NCBI GenBank assembly: GCA_017994575.1
Contig: JAGOKN010000025.1
Coordinates: 1-34,500 of the forward strand
Origin: Nitrosomonas sp.
Lineage (GTDB): Bacteria > Pseudomonadota > Gammaproteobacteria > Burkholderiales > Nitrosomonadaceae
Direction: 5' to 3'
DNA length: 34,500 bases
Shown here: piece after piece, positions 23,359 to 33,668 of the stretch
Numbering within the stretch: position 1 is the first letter of the stretch
How the letters are laid out: each line of letters opens with the position of its first letter
Made by a program: the position numbers and the translations under genes
Notes under the pieces: generated by a model
What the model saw: the letters and a program-made list of their open reading frames with translations, nothing else
Databases searched by the model: none
Told to the model about the DNA's origin: nothing

Positions 23359-23988
23359 TTAATTCTGTCGTGTGAGAGCAATCTTTTCTTTAAGCATTTC
23401 AATCAACGCTTGGAAACCATCTCGTTGCATAATTGCACGATATTCTCCACGCTTTATTGCAAGATCGCTCACGCCATCAAACAAGATATTGGTGATACGC
23501 CATTTTCCTTCCGTTTGGTGCAAAACATAGTCAAAATTGACGGTACCGCCATCAGATTTAATTAACTGGCTTCGCACTAAAATCTGCTCATGCGGCAAAG
23601 CACGCTGTTCAATAATTTCAAATTGCTCGCCCTCATATTGATTAAATCTCCCTGCATAAGTAGCAACACTGAGCTGGCGAAATGTTTCAACAATCAGATT
23701 TTGCTGCTTCTTATCCAGCTGCGACCAGTAGGTGGCACCCAATATAGTTTTAATAATCAGATCGATATCGTGAGACTGATCAATCACTGGTTCCAGGAAT
23801 TTAAATCGCCCATCGTACCCCAGCTTTTCACCCTCACGCATGACTTGAACTAAAGAAGTTTGCAATTTCTGAATCACTTGTTCTGGATTCTCCGCTTCCA
23901 CAGGGGCGCTGAATGCCGTCATCATTGGCAACAGCATGACCAATAATAAACTCCCGCCAATCAATTTAATTGTTTGCATTACTTTCAT
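23359..23988 (-). CDS. hpnM: HpnM, hopanoid-associated MlaC/Ttg2D family periplasmic protein
   Basis: This protein of about 210 residues has a signal peptide (MKVMQTIKLIGGSLLLVMLL...AFSAPVEA) and the MlaC (toluene tolerance Ttg2/phospholipid-binding) fold: VIQKLQTSLVQVMREG, ATYWSQLDKKQQNLIVETFRQL, VRSQLIKSDGGTVNFDYVLH and WRITNILFDGVSDLAIKRGEY. MlaC-type proteins carry lipids across the periplasm. HpnM is the hopanoid-linked branch, and the assignment rests on its place directly after hpnB and hpnH. ATG 23988 overlaps the end of hpnB by 23 bases; an ATG at 23979 is possible. Confidence 0.85.
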   Translation of the reverse strand: MKVMQTIKLIGGSLLLVMLLPMMTAFSAPVEAENPEQVIQKLQTSLVQVMREGEKLGYDGRFKFLEPVIDQSHDIDLIIKTILGATYWSQLDKKQQNLIVETFRQLSVATYAGRFNQYEGEQFEIIEQRALPHEQILVRSQLIKSDGGTVNFDYVLHQTEGKWRITNILFDGVSDLAIKRGEYRAIMQRDGFQALIEMLKEKIALTRQN

Positions 23989-25102
23989 ATCGACGATCTT
24001 TCCAACAAGCACGTTCTCCACGCCAGTATCGTAGCGCTGATGTCCAAGTCATAGCCAGGTACAAAGTACCAATAATAGGCAATGTCAGCCCCCATAATGG
24101 AGAACGCTGATAATAAATTAAAATAGGAATGTAGGTTAAAAACATAGCCACCCACGCCAATACACTCAGTATATAAATCTCGTGAGCAGGCAGCATCAAG
24201 AATGCAAGCGGAGCAGCCCAAAACATCGATATCATGATGACTGTACAAATGATCAGTAGCAAAAGCGAATATCTTAATTGAGTGTAAGCCGTACGTGCCA
24301 CCATTTCCCAAATCGGTTTTAGCGTTTGATAACCACGATGACTTCTTGCCGCACGACTAAGTCCAATCCAGGTTTGCAGTCCTGCACGCTTGACATGTGC
24401 CGCCAAAGTACAGTCATCAATCAACGCATTATGGAGATTTGCAAACGCTCCTATAGAGCGTAGTGCTTGGGTCTCAATCAAAATACAACCACCTGCAGCG
24501 GCCGCCATGCGTGATGTCGGATTATTGGCTAAACCAAAAGGATATAGTAATTTAAAGAAAAAGATAAATGCTGGCATCAATAACCGCTCGATAGCGTTCT
24601 TCATAGGTGGCTCGGCCATCAACGACACCAACGCCAGACGCTCATCACGCGCTTTTCTGAACAACTGGGCAATGATTCCAGGTGTCAGCTCAATATCAGC
24701 ATCCAACAACAATGTATAGGGTGTTCTAACTTCTCGCAGCCCCTGTTCAAGCGCCCATAGTTTTCCGCTCCAACCCGTAGGAGGTGTAGTACCCGATATT
24801 ACCTGTGCACTACATTGCTTAGCTTGCTTCGCTGTATCATCTATAGATTGATCATCTATCACGATGATTTGCACTCCTATGCCTTGCGCATTCACTCCGT
24901 CCAATGTATGTCGGATATAAGGCCCTTCATTGCGCGCAGGAATTAATACGGTAATGTCATTGAGCATTTCACCAGAACCTTTAGCGATTCCAGATTCTAA
25001 TTTCTCGCGAGTACTCCAAGGCCGCCATGGCAATATCAATATTGACCACCAGCATAAAGCGCCAAAAACAGAAAGGTATAACACCAATTCCACCATCCTC
25101 AT
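23966..25102 (-). CDS. hpnB: HpnB, hopanoid-associated glycosyltransferase family 2
   Basis: This 378-residue GT2 protein contains the nucleotide-sugar fold: VLIPARNEGPYIRHTLDGV, VIDDQSIDDTAKQAKQC, LLDADIELTPG (DxD-type motif) and LIDDCTLAAHVKRAG (ED-type acceptor region). It is flanked by an N-terminal membrane helix and a cluster of hydrophobic helices at the C-terminal end (about 285-365), so it is membrane-bound. These features and the hpnH neighbour identify HpnB. The substrate (probably a sugar for a bacteriohopanepolyol side chain) is inferred. It follows hpnH by 41 bases and overlaps hpnM. Confidence 0.9.
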   Translation of the reverse strand: MRMVELVLYLSVFGALCWWSILILPWRPWSTREKLESGIAKGSGEMLNDITVLIPARNEGPYIRHTLDGVNAQGIGVQIIVIDDQSIDDTAKQAKQCSAQVISGTTPPTGWSGKLWALEQGLREVRTPYTLLLDADIELTPGIIAQLFRKARDERLALVSLMAEPPMKNAIERLLMPAFIFFFKLLYPFGLANNPTSRMAAAAGGCILIETQALRSIGAFANLHNALIDDCTLAAHVKRAGLQTWIGLSRAARSHRGYQTLKPIWEMVARTAYTQLRYSLLLLIICTVIMISMFWAAPLAFLMLPAHEIYILSVLAWVAMFLTYIPILIYYQRSPLWGLTLPIIGTLYLAMTWTSALRYWRGERACWKDRRYESNANN

Positions 25103-25143
25103 TTAGTAGGTTGTAGAAACCAGTATTGCCACTCCAATACTCT

Positions 25144-26262
25144 TTACTTATTAATGAGTGTCACCTGAATATCTGAAAGTTTTTTGGGTGTTTTATTTTC
25201 TCCCGTCACCCATTTCGGAGTCGGTTCAGCTACCATCTCACCAGTCGTTTTGGGTCCTCTCATGGAAGCAATCAGTGCTTTCCATGGATGTTGGAGTGTG
25301 TCTTCAACAGCTGTTGCTTCATATCCGCAATGAGCCATACATTGAGCGCATTTTGGATTATTAGCTGTTCCATATTTTTCCCACGGCGTGTCATCGAGAA
25401 GCTCTTTGAAAGTTTTTGCATAACCCTCGTCTGACAATAAATAACAAGGCTTTTGCCATCCAAACACATTACGCGTCGGATTACCCCACGGCGTACATTC
25501 ATAATCCTGATTGCCTGCCAGATAATCTAAATACAGCGCTGAATGATTTAACCGCCATTTGCGTTTTAGCTTCTTCCCTAATTCGAAAATACCACGAAAT
25601 AATATCTTGGTATCTTGGCTTTTTATAAACACATCCTGCTGAGGTGCTTTCTCATAACTAAATCCTGGAGCAATCGTAGCTGCTTCGACACCCAACTCCA
25701 TTGCGTAATCTAGAAATTCAGCAACATCTTCCGGCGTTTCACCTTGAAACAAGGTGCAGTTTACTGTCACCCTAAAACCTCTCTCCAGCGCCAGTTTAAT
25801 AGCCTCAACCGCACGATCAAAAACGCCATCCTGGCAAACGGATGCATCATGGCGCTCTCTCATTCCATCCAAATGAATTGAGAACGTTAAATAGGGTGAT
25901 GGCGTATAGTCATCGATCCTTTTCTTTAACAATAAGGCATTTGTACACAGATACACATATTTTTTGCGCTTAATGATACCTGCAACAATCTGCGGCATTT
26001 CTTTATGAAGCAGTGGCTCACCACCGGGGATTGAAACCATCGGCGCACCACATTCGTCAACGGCCTGCATGCATTCTTCATAAGAGAGGCGTTGATCGAG
26101 AACATCTTCCGGATGTGCAATCTTTCCGCACCCCGCACAAGCTAGATTACAGCGAAACAAAGGCTCCAACATCAATACCAAAGGATATTTCTTAACCCCT
26201 TTTAACTTCTGTTTGATTAGATAAGTGCCAACTGCAATCTGTTGACGTAAAGGAACTCCCAT
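25144..26262 (-). CDS. hpnH: HpnH, adenosyl-hopene transferase (radical SAM)
   Basis: HpnH adds the 5'-deoxyadenosyl group of SAM to diploptene, the first step of side-chain building of bacteriohopanepolyols. In 372 residues, the radical SAM cysteines are C38, C42 and C45 (LFRCNLACAGCGK, CxxxCxxC), and MVSIPGGEPLLHKEM gives the SAM-binding GGE motif. A C-terminal cysteine-rich SPASM-like tail (NPKCAQCMAHCGYEAT) is typical of HpnH. ATG 26262 has GGAGG 8 bases upstream; a TTG at 26277 lies within that ribosome binding site and is not used. It is the first gene of hpnH-hpnB-hpnM. Squalene-hopene cyclase is not in the window. Confidence 0.95.
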   Translation of the reverse strand: MGVPLRQQIAVGTYLIKQKLKGVKKYPLVLMLEPLFRCNLACAGCGKIAHPEDVLDQRLSYEECMQAVDECGAPMVSIPGGEPLLHKEMPQIVAGIIKRKKYVYLCTNALLLKKRIDDYTPSPYLTFSIHLDGMRERHDASVCQDGVFDRAVEAIKLALERGFRVTVNCTLFQGETPEDVAEFLDYAMELGVEAATIAPGFSYEKAPQQDVFIKSQDTKILFRGIFELGKKLKRKWRLNHSALYLDYLAGNQDYECTPWGNPTRNVFGWQKPCYLLSDEGYAKTFKELLDDTPWEKYGTANNPKCAQCMAHCGYEATAVEDTLQHPWKALIASMRGPKTTGEMVAEPTPKWVTGENKTPKKLSDIQVTLINK

Positions 26263-26689
26263 GAGCAAAACCTCCAAAAATACTTCAAAAGCAAATGAAT
26301 GACGAACACTACAAAATTAATAAAAAATCAACCAAATCTAGCTAAAAGCCCGTATGAAATAAACAATGCCAGATCTAAGAAAAATCTGTCTGTAGTTCTT
26401 TAAGGTGTTTCTTTGTATTGAGGAATTTAAGTACTAAAAATAGAGATCCACAATAAACAATAACAACCATTGTTTAGCTTCCACAAATCCTATAATTATC
26501 TGATAAAGCTTTGAAACCCGTTCTAACGTTCAACTATAGAACATGACTCTGTCTATAGCAAATATTTTTAAAACCACAATGCCAATATGAGACACTAATG
26601 CCAATGAATTCTGCACAAACAAAAACGCCAAGAACTTTAATCTCTTGGCGTTTCAGAAAATGAAGCAGAATTAATACATGCCAGAGTTC
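26263..26689. other. Intergenic region between hpnH and the peptidoglycan-binding lipoprotein gene
   Basis: About 430 bases, AT-rich, contain no credible gene. The only clear element is the terminator hairpin at 26623-26653. The remainder should hold the hpnH promoter, but I cannot place it confidently. Confidence 0.5.
26623..26653 (-). terminator. Rho-independent terminator of the peptidoglycan-binding lipoprotein gene
   Basis: An 11-base-pair perfect stem (AAACGCCAAGA / TCTTGGCGTTT) encloses a 9-base loop and, on the minus strand, is followed by TTTTTGTTTG. It lies 36 bases after the stop of the gene ending at 26690. Confidence 0.85.
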
Positions 26690-27427: not shown

Positions 27428-28591
27428 ATGATGAATCACATATTTCCTAAAAGAAATTTATGCTTAATTGGCGGTGGCCACAGTCATGTCAATGTAATCA
27501 AACAGCTGGGCATGCATCCTATTGCTAACGTTAAAATCACTTTAATCAGCAATGATAGGCTCACAGCTTATTCAGGAATGCTACCCGGATTAATTGCAGG
27601 TCATTATATGTTTAATGACTGTCACATCGACATAGGTAGACTTTGCCAATGGGCTGGCATTCAATTTATTCGCAACGGAGTGCAACAGATTGATCCACTG
27701 ACAAAGAAAATTTTTTGTCATGCTCACCCTCCCCTCAGTTACGATCTGTTATCTTTAAATATTGGTTCTCAACCAGCACTTAACGATATCAGTGGCGCCC
27801 TTGTGCATGGACACCCTGTCAAACCGATCAAGCAATTTCTACGGAATTGGCATCAATGGATTGATTCCGTTCAATCTTCCAATCGCACGCAGCACATTGT
27901 CATCATTGGAGCCGGAGCCGCCGGTATCGAAATATTGCTAGCCATGCAGTATAAACTTCGTAGCTTGATGCCTGCTCGCGCTATGTTTACTTTGGTGTGC
28001 GCTGATCAAACCATACTCCATTCACACAACAACCATGTACAGCAATTTTTCAAACACCACCTGCAAATAAAAGGCATCGCGACTATCTGCGGGAAACATG
28101 TAATTTCGATCAACGAGCACCAACTGATACTGAATGATCACACCCAGCTTAGTTATGATTTCTGCGCTTGGGCTATTCATGCCGGTGCACAGCATTGGCC
28201 AGCGGATAGTGGCTTGCAGTGCGACAACCAGGGTTTTATTATGATTGACCAATATCTTCGCAGCATTTCACATCCAAGTATATTTGCTGCGGGTGATTGT
28301 GCGGCTTTCACACCCTCCCCACTACCGAAATCCGGTGTCTATGCAGTTCGTCAAGGACCTGTGTTAGCAAGCAATATTGTCGCCACACTTCAGAATCGCC
28401 CGCTTCTGGCTTTCAAGCCACAAAAATATTTCCTCAGTTTACTCACTGCCGGCCATCGCCAAGCTGTTGCTTCACGAGGTCCTCTATTTGCAAGTGGAAA
28501 ATGGGTTTGGTTATGGAAAGACTATATAGATCGGGCATTTATCGCGCGCTTTAATCCCAAGCGACCAATCAATAAAAGTTGCTTGGATTAA
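27428..28591 (+). CDS. NAD(P)/FAD-dependent oxidoreductase (SelD N-terminal-like / type II NADH dehydrogenase-like)
   Basis: This 387-residue flavoprotein has an N-terminal dinucleotide-binding motif LCLIGGGHSHVNVIKQL (note GGGHSH), a second nucleotide-binding site HIVIIGAGAAGIEILLAM around residue 160, and a C-terminal FAD contact SIFAAGDCAAF. The GGGHSH start and the RLTAYSGMLPGLIAGHY segment are characteristic of the family found fused to selenide, water dikinase or standing alone; here no SelD domain is attached, and the C-terminal 60 residues look short. The substrate is unknown; a quinone- or thiol-linked role is possible. It begins at MM; either ATG could be the start, and no strong ribosome binding site is seen. 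Confidence 0.82.
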   Translation: MMNHIFPKRNLCLIGGGHSHVNVIKQLGMHPIANVKITLISNDRLTAYSGMLPGLIAGHYMFNDCHIDIGRLCQWAGIQFIRNGVQQIDPLTKKIFCHAHPPLSYDLLSLNIGSQPALNDISGALVHGHPVKPIKQFLRNWHQWIDSVQSSNRTQHIVIIGAGAAGIEILLAMQYKLRSLMPARAMFTLVCADQTILHSHNNHVQQFFKHHLQIKGIATICGKHVISINEHQLILNDHTQLSYDFCAWAIHAGAQHWPADSGLQCDNQGFIMIDQYLRSISHPSIFAAGDCAAFTPSPLPKSGVYAVRQGPVLASNIVATLQNRPLLAFKPQKYFLSLLTAGHRQAVASRGPLFASGKWVWLWKDYIDRAFIARFNPKRPINKSCLD

Positions 28592-28670: not shown

Positions 28671-29324
28671 TTATTGTTCTATTAAATATTCGATAGCGGA
28701 TGCTGGTGTCAATACCCTAGGTTTATCTTGTGCAACCTCGTTAAAAGATGGTATCAATGTTTCCAGAAATGGAATTGAGTTTATTGATCCGCTTCTTGTG
28801 TGAGTAAATCCTCTATTATGAATCATTTTTTTCAAGTTAAAGGCGAACGCCTGAGAATCAAACTCCAGTATCAGAGTATTCGTGATAGTCAGGATCTGAC
28901 TAGTGCTAAATGATGAGAATGGATCTCTTCTAGCACTCAAATCAGTAAATAATGAGCTGATCACAATCACCAAATCCTTCCCATTGAAGTAGGCAGTTGC
29001 ATCAATAGATTCTAACGGTTTTGGTAAGCCGTCCAGCGCCGGAATTCCTGAATATCCCAAGGCCGTGGCATTATCGATACACACATTTTGGCTATTATTG
29101 ACAAAACGAGGAATTCCTCCTGTCAAACTTAAACGAAACATCCCGCCACCCAAATCCTCCGTGACCTCTAATCTGCTCTGGATTGGTGTTTCTGTTGACG
29201 TAAGATCGTTGGCATCTATCGGATTGAGACATTCAAATCCGTCATAGGTCAGAGACAATCCCCAAACATTACTTTGAACCAGCAAAGAAAATAATGTTAA
29301 TACCAATATCTGCATTATTTTCAT
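28671..29324 (-). CDS. Secreted protein of unknown function
   Basis: This 217-residue protein has a signal peptide (MKIMQILVLTLFSLLVQSNVWG) and a soluble body with no recognised domain. The mature part has two cysteines (FECLNPID and NVCIDNATALG), a Gly-rich turn (LGGGMFRLSLTGGIPRFV) and a patch of Ser/Thr/Leu beta strands (SQILTITNTLILEFDSQAF). A GAGG lies 7 bases before ATG 29324. It is 119 bases downstream of and co-directional with the sphingolipid-type operon, but there is no evidence of a shared transcript. Confidence 0.7.
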   Translation of the reverse strand: MKIMQILVLTLFSLLVQSNVWGLSLTYDGFECLNPIDANDLTSTETPIQSRLEVTEDLGGGMFRLSLTGGIPRFVNNSQNVCIDNATALGYSGIPALDGLPKPLESIDATAYFNGKDLVIVISSLFTDLSARRDPFSSFSTSQILTITNTLILEFDSQAFAFNLKKMIHNRGFTHTRSGSINSIPFLETLIPSFNEVAQDKPRVLTPASAIEYLIEQ

Positions 29325-29443: not shown

Positions 29444-30640
29444 TTAAGGTTTGTTTGAACACACCATGTCATGTAGTTTAGCAAATGTATCCCCAACATA
29501 CGCAATTTGTTCTGACGTATGAGCAGCATTTACACTACACCTCACCAGCGATTTACCCTCAGGCGCCGCTGGAGGCAGTATCAAATTCACATAAATATTA
29601 TGCTCAAGCAAATTTTGCCAAAGCAAAAGTGCTTGTTGAGGCGTATCAAGAATAGCAGCAATCACAGGACCAGGATCCGGTCCAAGAACATAACCAGCAT
29701 CCTGCAATCGAGAATAAAGCTGTGTTGAGCTACTCCACAATTGTTTACGCAAATCACTTCCCTTGCGCAACAACTCCAATGCCGCTCGCGTAGAAGCAAT
29801 TGTGGCTGGTGAAGGTGACGCAGTAAAAATATAAGGATGACTCACATAGCGCAATTGCTCAAGCTGCGGGTGGTTACTCACACAAAAACCGCCAATACTG
29901 CACAAGCTTTTACTAAATGTACCGGTAATGAAGTCAACCTCCTCCAATAAACCGGTTTTTTCAACCAGACCCTGACCAGTTTCTCCTAACACCCCAAGTG
30001 AATGAGCTTCATCAAGTAGCAAGATACAATTGTATGCCTTTTTAAGCCTAACGATCTCAGCCAGAGGCGCTTGATCTCCCAGCATACTGTATATACCTTC
30101 AGCAATAATCAGCGTTGTTTCAACACGCGCTCCCAGTCGACGCAGACGCTTTTCCATATCGACCATATCATTATGTTTAAAGCGAATGATATCTGCGCCA
30201 CTGAGAATACAGCCATCATAGATACTCGCATGAGAATCACCATCAATCAATACAGTGTCTCCGGGACCTACCAAACCAGAAATAGTCCCTAAGTTAGCTT
30301 GATAACCGGTTGTAAACACGATACCAGAGCTACAACGATAAAAATCGGCAAATTCCCTTTCTAGAGCACGGTGTCCAAAATAGCTGCCATTTGCCATCCG
30401 AGAACCGGTAGTACCCGTACCTTCCTTATCAATAGCCTCATGCGCTGCGCGGATGCACTCCGGGGCAAAGGTAAGTCCCAAGTAGTTGTTAGTTCCTAGC
30501 AGAAGGACACGACGGTCACCAATTCTGGCTTCCGTCGCCGAGTAAACTTCCTCTATTGGAATGCCAAAAGCACCAACACCATTGGGTAAAAGTGCTTTTC
30601 TTGCCGCAGCCGATGCATCTAATTTCTCAAGTAAATTCAT
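29444..30640 (-). CDS. spt: Serine palmitoyltransferase-like alpha-oxoamine synthase
   Basis: This 398-residue PLP enzyme condenses an acyl thioester with an amino acid. The fold-type I marks are TGSRMANGSYFGHRALE (about 77-93), LLDEAHSLGVLGETGQG (D209, H212) and the PLP lysine K243 in TGTFSKSLCSIGGF. The TFSKS...SIGGF version is that of serine palmitoyltransferase (SPT) rather than BioF (T-L-S-K-A) or KBL. No biotin genes are nearby; instead it is the last gene of an operon with an ACP, an SDR reductase and a fatty acyl-AMP ligase, as in the bacterial sphingolipid locus of Caulobacter. Its start overlaps the ACP stop by one base (TAATG). The reaction, serine plus acyl-ACP to 3-ketosphinganine, is inferred. 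Confidence 0.85.
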   Translation of the reverse strand: MNLLEKLDASAAARKALLPNGVGAFGIPIEEVYSATEARIGDRRVLLLGTNNYLGLTFAPECIRAAHEAIDKEGTGTTGSRMANGSYFGHRALEREFADFYRCSSGIVFTTGYQANLGTISGLVGPGDTVLIDGDSHASIYDGCILSGADIIRFKHNDMVDMEKRLRRLGARVETTLIIAEGIYSMLGDQAPLAEIVRLKKAYNCILLLDEAHSLGVLGETGQGLVEKTGLLEEVDFITGTFSKSLCSIGGFCVSNHPQLEQLRYVSHPYIFTASPSPATIASTRAALELLRKGSDLRKQLWSSSTQLYSRLQDAGYVLGPDPGPVIAAILDTPQQALLLWQNLLEHNIYVNLILPPAAPEGKSLVRCSVNAAHTSEQIAYVGDTFAKLHDMVCSNKP

Positions 30641-30894
30641 TATGCTTCTGATTTTATTTTGTAAACTAAGTCGGCTAACTCACCAACAGTCTGAATATCT
30701 GTTAATGCATTAATGGGAATTGAAATATCAAAGGTATCTTCAATTTCCATAATCAAATTCAATAGCTTAATTGAATCAATGGACAATTGACTAATTAAAT
30801 TAGTTTCAAGTGTAATCTGGGCATCGGCACTAGCTATACTATTTAAGCGATCACAAAGAAGCTGTGTGATTTCTTGGTAACTACTTTCAGTCAT
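30640..30894 (-). CDS. Acyl carrier protein of the sphingolipid-type operon
   Basis: This 84-residue acidic protein has the ACP four-helix pattern. The phosphopantetheine site is Ser41 in LSIDSIKLLNL (DSI rather than the usual DSL), preceded by LISQ and followed by EIEDTFDISIP. It is too specialised to be the housekeeping AcpP, which has a DSLD motif. Its place between the SPT and the reductase genes suggests it carries the acyl chain activated by the fatty acyl-AMP ligase to SPT. Its stop overlaps the SPT start (TAATG), consistent with coupled translation. Confidence 0.88.
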   Translation of the reverse strand: MTESSYQEITQLLCDRLNSIASADAQITLETNLISQLSIDSIKLLNLIMEIEDTFDISIPINALTDIQTVGELADLVYKIKSEA

Positions 30895-30923
30895 AAGTTG
30901 ATTCAGGAGAGTTAAATTTTGAG

Positions 30924-31838
30924 TTAGATTACTTTAGATAATACATCTTGTAAACGAATACTAGGTTTCCATGCTGGGAGCACACGGATCAAGGCGGCAT
31001 TATCACATACCCAGTTGCTATGTTGTAACTCATTCACCTTTCCAGGAGTCAACATAGGAGAGTAATGACAAAAGCGTGCAATCCATAGATTGAATAAAGC
31101 GATATTTCTGATTAAAAAGTTGGGTATGACTATGCAACGAACCGGATGTTTCCATATTTGTTGCGCTAAAGCGGATAAGCTTTGATAACTGTACCCATTC
31201 GGGACCCCATCATCTAACTCAAAAATACCATTGATATCGGTATCAGAATCCAACCAAAGTTGAATTGCTGCAACCAAATCTTCTACATGGATTAATCCAA
31301 ACCGATTATGTATTTTCCCAATTACAGGAAGCAATCCACGATACATCGCCTGAAAAAGAGGTTTTAATTCTTTATCTCCCGGACCATAAACTGCAGTAGG
31401 TCGAAATATCGTCCATGGCAACTGATCCGAGTATTGAATGAGCTGTTGCTCAGACAAATATTTACTTTGAGCATACCAAGACAGTTCGGGTTGCCTTGCC
31501 GCTAAAGATGAAATTAGCAGAAAGCGGGGAGATTGTTTCTGCTCAGAGATGGTCCACAGAAGATTCTTAGTACCTTGGACATTGATATGCGAAAACTCTT
31601 TAAAAGAACTTCCTCGGACTGTTGCAGCACAGTGAATGACAAACGCTACACCATTAACTAAATGATGTAGCGCAGTTAAATTATCCAAATCACCGTGTAT
31701 CCAATGGATCGAATCTCTACTATCAGACCGATATGTTCGCGTAAGTGCACGAACTTTCCATCCATCTTCAATCAACCTTTGAATCAGCACATTACCAATG
31801 AAACCAGTAGCGCCTGTTACAGCTACCAATTTTGGCAT
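30924..31838 (-). CDS. cerR: NAD(P)-dependent extended-SDR reductase (CerR-like)
   Basis: This 304-residue protein has the Rossmann motif VTGATGFIG (residues 7-15), an acidic strand end DLDN, and the SDR catalytic pair in SWYAQSKYLSEQ (Y122, K126) with a preceding serine (LISSLAA). It belongs to the extended SDR/NDUFA9-like group. In this gene context it fits CerR, which reduces the 3-keto group of the ceramide or sphingoid precursor in bacterial sphingolipid synthesis. It lies 29 bases upstream of the ACP gene and 6 bases after the ligase gene. A sugar or steroid/terpenoid epimerase role is the alternative reading without context. Confidence 0.8.
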   Translation of the reverse strand: MPKLVAVTGATGFIGNVLIQRLIEDGWKVRALTRTYRSDSRDSIHWIHGDLDNLTALHHLVNGVAFVIHCAATVRGSSFKEFSHINVQGTKNLLWTISEQKQSPRFLLISSLAARQPELSWYAQSKYLSEQQLIQYSDQLPWTIFRPTAVYGPGDKELKPLFQAMYRGLLPVIGKIHNRFGLIHVEDLVAAIQLWLDSDTDINGIFELDDGVPNGYSYQSLSALAQQIWKHPVRCIVIPNFLIRNIALFNLWIARFCHYSPMLTPGKVNELQHSNWVCDNAALIRVLPAWKPSIRLQDVLSKVI

Positions 31839-31844
31839 GTTTCT

Positions 31845-33668
31845 TTATCGATCTCCTGATTCTACAACAGATAATTGACCTGTAAGATTTGTTCTCTGAA
31901 TATAACCTTGTCGCGCAGCAAAGCGGGAAAGCTTTCCAGAAGAGGTTCTTGGCAAAGTATGTGGTGGAACTAATTCAACAACGCAATTCACACCAAATGC
32001 CATATAAACTAACTGCTGTAATCTGGTAGTCAATGACTGCCTCTCCGTCACAGATGTAAGCCTACACTCAATAACCAAAACAATAGTTGTTGTCCCATCT
32101 TCATCATTCACACCAAATGCTGACGCCTCACGAGACCTTACTTCTGGCTGCTGTTCTGCCAACTCTTCAATGTCTTGCGCACGAATATTACGGCCATTTA
32201 CAATTATCACATCAGTACGACGCCCAGTGATATAGAGATCTCCTTCAAAAAGAAAACCGATATCTCCTGTATCTAACCAATTCCCGGGTTTCAGTGCTTT
32301 GCTAGTTTCATCTATATTATTATAATAACCCATCATTACACTTTCGCCTTGCACCAAAACACTTCCAACCATCATTTCAGATAATTGCTGACCATCTTCA
32401 TCAATTATCTTAACAATGTGGCCTGGCAAGGGGCGCCCACAATTGACAAATTCATTTTGTTTACGTCCATCAGCCTGTAATCGCACAGCCATTCTTTTAT
32501 CAATAAGTGCTTTACTATCTATTTGAATACTCTTGCATCCTGTTCCAACTTTTGAGAATGTAACAGCAAGTGTTGATTCAGCAAGACCGTAACACGGCAG
32601 AAAAGCATTTTCATCAAAACCTGCTGATGAAAACTTTTCCGCAAAATTCCTCAGGGTTTCGGGCCTAATCATTTCGGCACCAATGCCAGCTGCTCTCCAA
32701 CAACTAAGATCTAATTCTTTCAAATCAGATTCGCGAACACGCAAACTACAGAGCTTAAGACCGAAAGGTTGACTAAATGCAACAGTGCAACGATTGCGAC
32801 TAATTAGACGCAGCCATTGCAAGGGTCGAATTGCAAAATCCCGTGTTGCAAGATAATCAACTGAAATTTGTGTGACCATTGGCGCAAGAACCAACCCCAC
32901 TAACCCCATGTCATGATAAAACGGCAACCATGATGCTGAACGATCATCAGGTTTTATTTCCAATCCATTACAAACGATACCTTGCAAATTACACATCAAA
33001 GCACGCTCAGTGATAACTACACCTCTAGGAGTGCGTGTGCTACCCGAAGTAAACTGCAAATAGGCAGTTTCATCAGGATGATTAGGTTTTAATTCAACAT
33101 CTTTTTCAGGCAATTCACCCAGTTTCCCAGGTGTCCCAACCCATTTCAGACATGCTGCTTCTTGGGCAGCTTCTTCCAAGAAACCAATATAATCAACATT
33201 AGCAAGTGCAATACTCGCTTGACTGCTCTCAAGCATACCTCGCAATTGCTGAACATATATTGTATGACTGCCAAGATTCACAGGAACTGGCATTGCAAAA
33301 GGCACTAAACCAGCATAGCGGCAAGCAAAAAACAATTCGACAAACTCAGGGGAAGTATCGGCAATGATTGCTACCCGGCTACCGCGAGGCAAATCAAAAC
33401 CAGATAAACGTTGAGCTAAACTACGAGCATTTTCCCTCAATAAACTATAAGGCAAAACTGAACGTAAATTACCCTTCGCATCGTAAAAATTATACCCCGT
33501 TATTCCCCCGGCTGCATATTCTAAAGCGCTCGTTAGAGTATCAAAACCTGCTAACTGCTGAGTTAGTGTATTGAGTGTCGGTGTCGGTGTTATTTGCGAC
33601 TCGCTTGAAGGTTGAAAATCAAACGCTTGCGTTAGCGGAGCGTTCAACTTGATTATTGTCGAACTCAA
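31845..33668 (-). CDS. Fatty acyl-AMP ligase (FAAL) of the sphingolipid-type operon
   Basis: This 607-residue adenylate-forming enzyme activates a fatty acid as acyl-AMP for transfer to an ACP. Visible motifs are FTSGSTRTPRGVVIT (about 206-220), the FAAL-typical SWLPFYHDMGLVGLVLAPM, PCYGLAESTLAVTF and, near the C-terminus, WLDTGDIGFLFEGDLYITGRRTDVIIVNGRNI and a catalytic-lysine end LPRTSSGKLSR. The start is TTG 33668, preceded by GAGGGGA at 7 bases spacing; there is no ATG that would give a complete protein. It is the first gene of the operon and its start overlaps the stop of a 42-codon leader frame. It probably supplies the neighbouring ACP with a fatty acid. Confidence 0.88.
   Translation of the reverse strand: MSSTIIKLNAPLTQAFDFQPSSESQITPTPTLNTLTQQLAGFDTLTSALEYAAGGITGYNFYDAKGNLRSVLPYSLLRENARSLAQRLSGFDLPRGSRVAIIADTSPEFVELFFACRYAGLVPFAMPVPVNLGSHTIYVQQLRGMLESSQASIALANVDYIGFLEEAAQEAACLKWVGTPGKLGELPEKDVELKPNHPDETAYLQFTSGSTRTPRGVVITERALMCNLQGIVCNGLEIKPDDRSASWLPFYHDMGLVGLVLAPMVTQISVDYLATRDFAIRPLQWLRLISRNRCTVAFSQPFGLKLCSLRVRESDLKELDLSCWRAAGIGAEMIRPETLRNFAEKFSSAGFDENAFLPCYGLAESTLAVTFSKVGTGCKSIQIDSKALIDKRMAVRLQADGRKQNEFVNCGRPLPGHIVKIIDEDGQQLSEMMVGSVLVQGESVMMGYYNNIDETSKALKPGNWLDTGDIGFLFEGDLYITGRRTDVIIVNGRNIRAQDIEELAEQQPEVRSREASAFGVNDEDGTTTIVLVIECRLTSVTERQSLTTRLQQLVYMAFGVNCVVELVPPHTLPRTSSGKLSRFAARQGYIQRTNLTGQLSVVESGDR

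Follow-up and report, generated by a model that had tools for sequence, protein, structure and literature searches.

Organisation of the operon

A stretch of 34,500 nucleotides from Nitrosomonas sp. (assembly GCA_017994575.1, contig JAGOKN010000025.1, positions 1 to 34,500; referred to here as the window) encodes at 29444-33668 a fatty acyl-AMP ligase (FAAL), an extended short-chain dehydrogenase/reductase (SDR), an acyl carrier protein (ACP) and a serine palmitoyltransferase (SPT). We regard these four genes, with little doubt, as the aasR-cerR-acpR-spt operon of the sphingolipid pathway known from Caulobacter and other 'Rhodobacteria'. The identities of the genes, their order, their conservation and the presence in the same genome of a bacterial ceramide synthase (bCerS) homologue are established in the current analysis. 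An earlier note on this DNA had proposed a Caulobacter-type operon with an SPT fed by acyl-ACP, and this core of the proposal finds support in the curated family scores and the order of the genes, in a tree and in published work. Its two further suggestions, that such an operon is unexpected in this lineage and that ketosphinganine could be the end product, do not hold.

The coordinates of the open reading frames (ORFs) confirm the four-gene operon as it had been described. The genes are transcribed from the minus strand in the order FAAL, SDR, ACP and SPT, with a gap of 6 bases between the first two (31839-31844), a gap of 29 bases between the second and third (30895-30923) and a one-base overlap, base 30640 being common to the ACP stop and the SPT start. 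The arrangement is that of the rhodobacterial operon, namely four genes in the order aasR-cerR-acpR-spt on a single strand with acpR directly 5' of spt. The start of the FAAL gene is preceded by GAGGGGAAGATC, and the open frame upstream of it contains no further ATG, GTG or TTG. Promoter and terminator scans returned 4 promoter sites (15.2 expected from shuffles) and 8 terminator-like sites (4.2 expected), from which no claim of either element is drawn.

Table 1. Genes of the putative sphingolipid operon, with positions in the window
Gene product	Position	Strand	Length and start	Basis of assignment
SPT (spt, serine palmitoyltransferase)	29444-30640	-	398 aa	NF047599, PDB matches, tree
ACP (acpR, dedicated acyl carrier protein)	30640-30894	-	84 aa	PF00550, identity to E. 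coli AcpR, DSI motif
Extended SDR (cerR-like, candidate ketosphinganine/ketoceramide reductase)	30924-31838	-	304 aa	PF01370, identity to E. coli protein
FAAL (aasR-like fatty acyl-AMP ligase / specialised acyl-ACP synthetase)	31845-33668	-	607 aa, TTG	NF006624, identity to E. coli protein

Identity of the encoded proteins

The synthase scores 569 bits with the NCBIfam model NF047599 (serine palmitoyltransferase), above its curated cut-off of 500, which was passed in 2 of 14 named genomes used as a control. It falls under the cut-offs of the sister SPT models NF047603 (425.5 of 670 bits) and NF047600 (338.2 of 640). A rival reading, in which the synthase would be a paralogue of BioF or KBL belonging to some unrelated operon for fatty acids or secondary metabolites, draws on its homology to these enzymes, with 318.6 bits for the BioF model and 295.9 and 255.3 bits for the two KBL models. 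These scores, however, lie below the respective curated cut-offs of 426.45, 460 and 493 bits, while the SPT model is passed. The best match in the PDB is the bacterial SPT 2x8u (E-value 4.5e-120), compared with 8.4e-61 for the best KBL, 3tqx. The genome also carries a BioF-like gene of its own (G000:C59:46530-47600).

A rapid maximum-likelihood tree with 43 rows, in which 40 SPT rows separate at SH-aLRT 97 from the BioF and Kbl of E. coli and from the BioF-like protein of the genome itself, argues in the same direction, and the phylogenetic check proposed in the earlier note thus leaves its reading unrefuted. The window SPT is grouped with three rows of the same genus (99) within a clade of 13 rows (100), comprising 12 rows of the family of the window and L128 (Nitrosomonadaceae bacterium), whose SPT pairs with that of a same-family genome at almost zero branch length. 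The rows were drawn from 27 of 80 named loci, these being the best 80 SPT loci from a scan of species genomes, together with 8 of 12 family SPT loci and three same-genus loci. The 27 remained from 32 loci picked by hand for spread after removal of five with a stop inside the translated match. Such a stop occurs in 6 of the 80, probably where the match extends beyond the gene end; the row L043 was kept with one stop, read as a gap. Because the outgroup branches are long (2.8-6.2), the tree is used solely for the distinction between SPT and BioF/Kbl. On these observations the BioF or KBL alternative is already contradicted, and we give it next to no weight.

The motif TFSKSLCSIGGF, in which the earlier note had placed the lysine binding pyridoxal phosphate (PLP), is present in the synthase. 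The stretches T241-F-S-K244-S and D210-E-A-H213 are unchanged across five aligned SPTs, that of E. coli among them, the former presumably being the PLP-lysine motif.

The choice of substrate by an SPT cannot be read from a family score, and the Black Sea study (PMC11334938) describes, for the same genes, a pathway to a (1-deoxy)ceramide backbone. That the SPT uses alanine or glycine and makes a 1-deoxy or other variant base is nevertheless very improbable beside serine-derived sphinganine, as the closest solved relatives of the window SPT are named serine palmitoyltransferases; a sign of altered substrate use was not seen, though none was looked for.

The remaining three proteins exceed the cut-offs of their families: the FAAL scores 848 bits with NF006624 (fatty acyl-AMP ligase, cut-off 600), the ACP 45 bits with PF00550 (cut-off 20.8) and the SDR 92 bits with PF01370 (cut-off 20.9). 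The ACP sequence contains a DSI motif. An operon of the same order is found in E. coli BL21(DE3) (ECD_02850-02854: yghO, FAAL, epimerase, ACP and spt), and the proteins of the window share with its products identities of 46% for the FAAL (across 566 positions), 44% for the reductase at the same operon position, 39% for the ACP (across 59 positions to AcpR) and 54% for the SPT. When the E. coli reductase is used as a query on the Nitrosomonas genome, the SDR of the window is retrieved with an E-value of 8.1e-76; the only other place at or below 1e-10 has an E-value of 4.8e-15. The E. coli operon has the same one-base overlap of ACP and spt and a reductase/ACP gap of 31 bases. It differs in that its FAAL and reductase genes overlap by 4 bases instead of being separated by 6, and in that bCerS (yghO) is divergently adjacent to the operon, where the Nitrosomonas genome has it on a separate contig.

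The ceramide synthase and the genes beside it

A search of the whole genome with E. coli YghO identifies a single place, G000:C126:203-1312, with an identity of 49% (E-value 2.9e-125), which lies in an intact ORF of 384 aa (G000:C126:164-1318). The absence of bCerS from the window, remarked upon in the earlier note, is therefore real, and the genome-wide search which that note had advised provides the missing N-acyltransferase, known also as bCerS or aca, on contig C126; this check, too, does not refute the note's reading. The C126 protein, used as query, has relatives in 120 of the 125 family genomes and in 98 of the 99 of good quality. The suggestion that the operon halts at ketosphinganine, or yields another α-oxoamine lipid for want of a ceramide synthase, had in its favour that bCerS lies outside the window, on another contig only. 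It is unsupported, because the genome carries this full-length homologue and a gene block of the downstream type, and a counterpart has been named in N. eutropha (Neut_1100, PMC9386255); we consider it very unlikely.

Two minor observations concern bCerS. PF04339 (FemAB_like), taken as a stand-in for bCerS, proved wrong, E. coli YghO and the bCerS of the genome itself having no match to any Pfam family; the surveys made with it (0 of 1 for the genome itself, 53 of 125 genomes at an E-value of 0.001 or less, 31 of 125 over the cut-off) are uninformative on bCerS and were discarded. A second bCerS-like protein, 35-36% identical, is encoded besides the standard one in two same-genus genomes (G009:C18:1073-2191 and G041:C10:43244-44359).

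On C126 the bCerS gene is followed in order by genes for a MobA-like NTP transferase, an LptF/LptG-family permease, a second such permease with 33.5% identity to the LptG of the E. coli cluster, a protein with a CDP-alcohol phosphatidyltransferase domain and a lipid-kinase candidate of 664 aa (L040:5732-7726 on C126) that matches DAGK_cat only at 19-128. The remainder of the kinase candidate holds, by eye, an LYGS-type stretch that might be a nucleotidyltransferase. In three Pseudomonas loci (L073-L075) relatives of bCerS, the NTP transferase, LptF, the CDP-alcohol transferase and the kinase are collinear with the C126 block; they differ in that the block stands divergently, directly beside the operon, and not on a separate contig. 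Across 81 stretches, consisting of the 80 named loci with up to 10 kb of flank and the E. coli cluster, bCerS was detected in 60, the NTP transferase in 35, the CDP-alcohol transferase in 8 and the kinase in 4.

The genome has a second DAGK_cat gene and two further CDP-alcohol transferase genes, and the copies on C126 score below these (54.2 against 56 bits for DAGK_cat; 34.9 against 82.7 and 78.8 bits for the CDP-alcohol transferase). Around the other kinase gene (G000:C58:4199-5200) no sphingolipid gene was seen by eye among ORFs of at least 150 aa within 14 kb. Judged by their sequence families, the genes beside bCerS would probably serve to attach a phosphorylated head group and to carry the lipid to the outer membrane.

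Occurrence in Nitrosomonadaceae and in other bacteria

The operon is already known, and the present locus adds one member to a described pathway. Figure 9 of PMC9386255 lists for N. eutropha C91 the genes aasR (Neut_0458), epi (Neut_0459), acpR (Neut_0460), spt (Neut_0461) and aca (Neut_1100), and its legend names YghO as the N-acyltransferase. Compared by gene types and locus tags, the window has the same four gene types in the same order, and in both organisms the N-acyltransferase is encoded elsewhere in the genome. According to PMC11324152, N. eutropha has at least 13 of the 17 genes of the Caulobacter cluster in three regions and is predicted to make CPG and CPG2.

Of the 125 genomes of the family, 119 encode an SPT over the NF047599 cut-off. 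Given this and the published operon of N. eutropha, its presence in a Nitrosomonas-like ammonia oxidiser is not unexpected, contrary to what had been supposed. The six genomes lacking such an SPT (G006, G017, G028, G038, G055 and G119) are 66-91% complete. G038, G055 and G119 are also without bCerS, G017 has no bCerS and only an SPT fragment at a contig start, and G006 and G028 retain bCerS; G007 has an SPT and no bCerS. Six of these seven genomes are 66-89% complete, and G055, with neither gene at 91% completeness, could be a case of true loss. In a draw of genomes from the order, for which the number of family members included is unstated, an SPT passed the cut-off in 16 of 399, of which 13 belong to the same family and three to two other families.

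It is this breadth, SPT and bCerS throughout the family as against SPT in 16 of 399 order genomes, that may be the useful element. It turns the presence of sphingolipid membranes in ammonia-oxidising bacteria into a simple question for lipidomics, and is relevant to the reading of bacterial ceramides from the environment.

Beyond the family, Enterobacterales, Pseudomonas, Azotobacter, Nitrospirota, Myxococcota, Thermodesulfobacteriota, Gemmatimonadota and others are represented among the best 80 loci, in which neighbouring genes were detected with the window proteins as queries. Of these loci, 61 keep the order AasR-CerR-AcpR-SPT on a single strand within 5 kb; in each of the remaining 19, one or more of the three genes other than SPT escaped detection, some of these loci being near a contig end. 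The E. coli spt gene has matches in 4088 of 5426 complete E. coli genomes, in 4047 across at least 80% of the gene length.

The same operon with bCerS nearby was also observed in Nitrospirales/Nitrospiraceae records (L081, L085, L092, L104 and L116, one of them a nitrite-oxidising bacterium by isolate name) and in Nitrococcus mobilis (L086), which suggests that nitrite oxidisers may carry sphingolipid genes too.

Proposed pathway and its product

Every enzymatic step, the preference for acyl-ACP and the final lipid are proposed here by analogy with the work on Caulobacter and E. coli. In Caulobacter crescentus AasR loads AcpR and the SPT prefers acyl-AcpR (PMC9386255). The same five ceramide gene types occur there as CC_1162-CC_1165 and CC_1154 (PMC11324152, PMC11087976), and the CPG/CPG2 cluster further includes LptF2/LptG2 and a lipid kinase, a likeness at the level of gene type. 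For the CPG/CPG2 pathway, orthologues of the ceramide kinase, CC_1161, CC_1159, CC_1153 and CC_1152 would be expected; beside bCerS on C126 stand DAGK_cat, CDP-alcohol transferase, MobA-like NTP transferase and LptF/LptG genes. The Caulobacter genes form a single region of 17 genes; those of the Nitrosomonas genome lie on at least two contigs.

By this analogy AasR would activate a fatty acid and transfer it to AcpR, and SPT would join the acyl-AcpR with L-serine to give 3-oxo-sphinganine. bCerS would then attach a second acyl chain and CerR would reduce the 3-keto group, giving a (dihydro)ceramide. This order is favoured by the reported location in Caulobacter of SPT and bCerS in the cytoplasm and of CerR in the periplasm (PMC11087976), while the opposite order, reduction before acylation, had been proposed earlier (PMC11324152). 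The lipid kinase, the CDP-alcohol transferase, the NTP transferase and LptF/LptG would probably provide a phosphorylated head group and export to the outer membrane; CpgB of Caulobacter is a ceramide kinase (PMC10331486). The most likely product is thus predicted to be a (dihydro)ceramide, whose head group would probably be phosphorylated, rather than bare ketosphinganine, since bCerS and its collinear gene block lie elsewhere in the same genome.

Several points weigh against this assignment. The SDR matched no curated CerR or ceramide-reductase model in the curated family search, and its role as CerR therefore rests on its position in the operon and a moderate identity. The bCerS homologue matches no Pfam family and is unlinked to the operon. 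The candidate head-group genes are recognised by their domain types and by the order in which they stand, and six further proteins of the E. coli cluster (one YtfJ-family, one hypothetical, one flippase-like and three kinase-like) have no match on C126. SPT occurs without nearby AasR and CerR in at least eight of the best 80 loci (L096, L099, L102, L108, L109, L115, L123 and L127), in which neither was detected in at least 6 kb upstream of SPT. In the literature on sphingolipids or ceramides in Nitrosomonas or ammonia oxidisers, the titles and opening parts of abstracts among the matches listed, with most subscription journals outside, mention no measurement.

Genes flanking the operon

The window contains at 23359-26277 the hopanoid genes hpnM, hpnB (just below its curated cut-off) and hpnH, separated from the spt end of the operon by roughly 3 kb or more. 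In the window and three further genomes considered for the genus, HpnH is near the operon, the latter being the loci L042, L043 and L045; it was not detected in the locus of another genus (L044), nor in any of the 81 stretches, many of which are short. It is conceivable, though we advance it only tentatively and at somewhat less than even chances, that the ammonia-oxidising family Nitrosomonadaceae as a whole has sphingolipids, probably phosphorylated ceramides, as a core lipid of its outer membrane, and that, the hopanoid and sphingolipid genes being close together in the genus of the window, both kinds of membrane-ordering lipid may be made in concert there.

Between the hopanoid and sphingolipid genes, at 27428-28591, lies a gene for a pyridine nucleotide-disulfide oxidoreductase of a kind known as a fusion partner of SelD (TIGR03169, 464 bits). 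Just downstream of spt, an ORF of 217 aa (28671-29324) has no NCBIfam or Pfam match and, by eye, an apparent signal peptide; it was not detected in L042, L044 and L045 and is kept in L043 with 67% identity.

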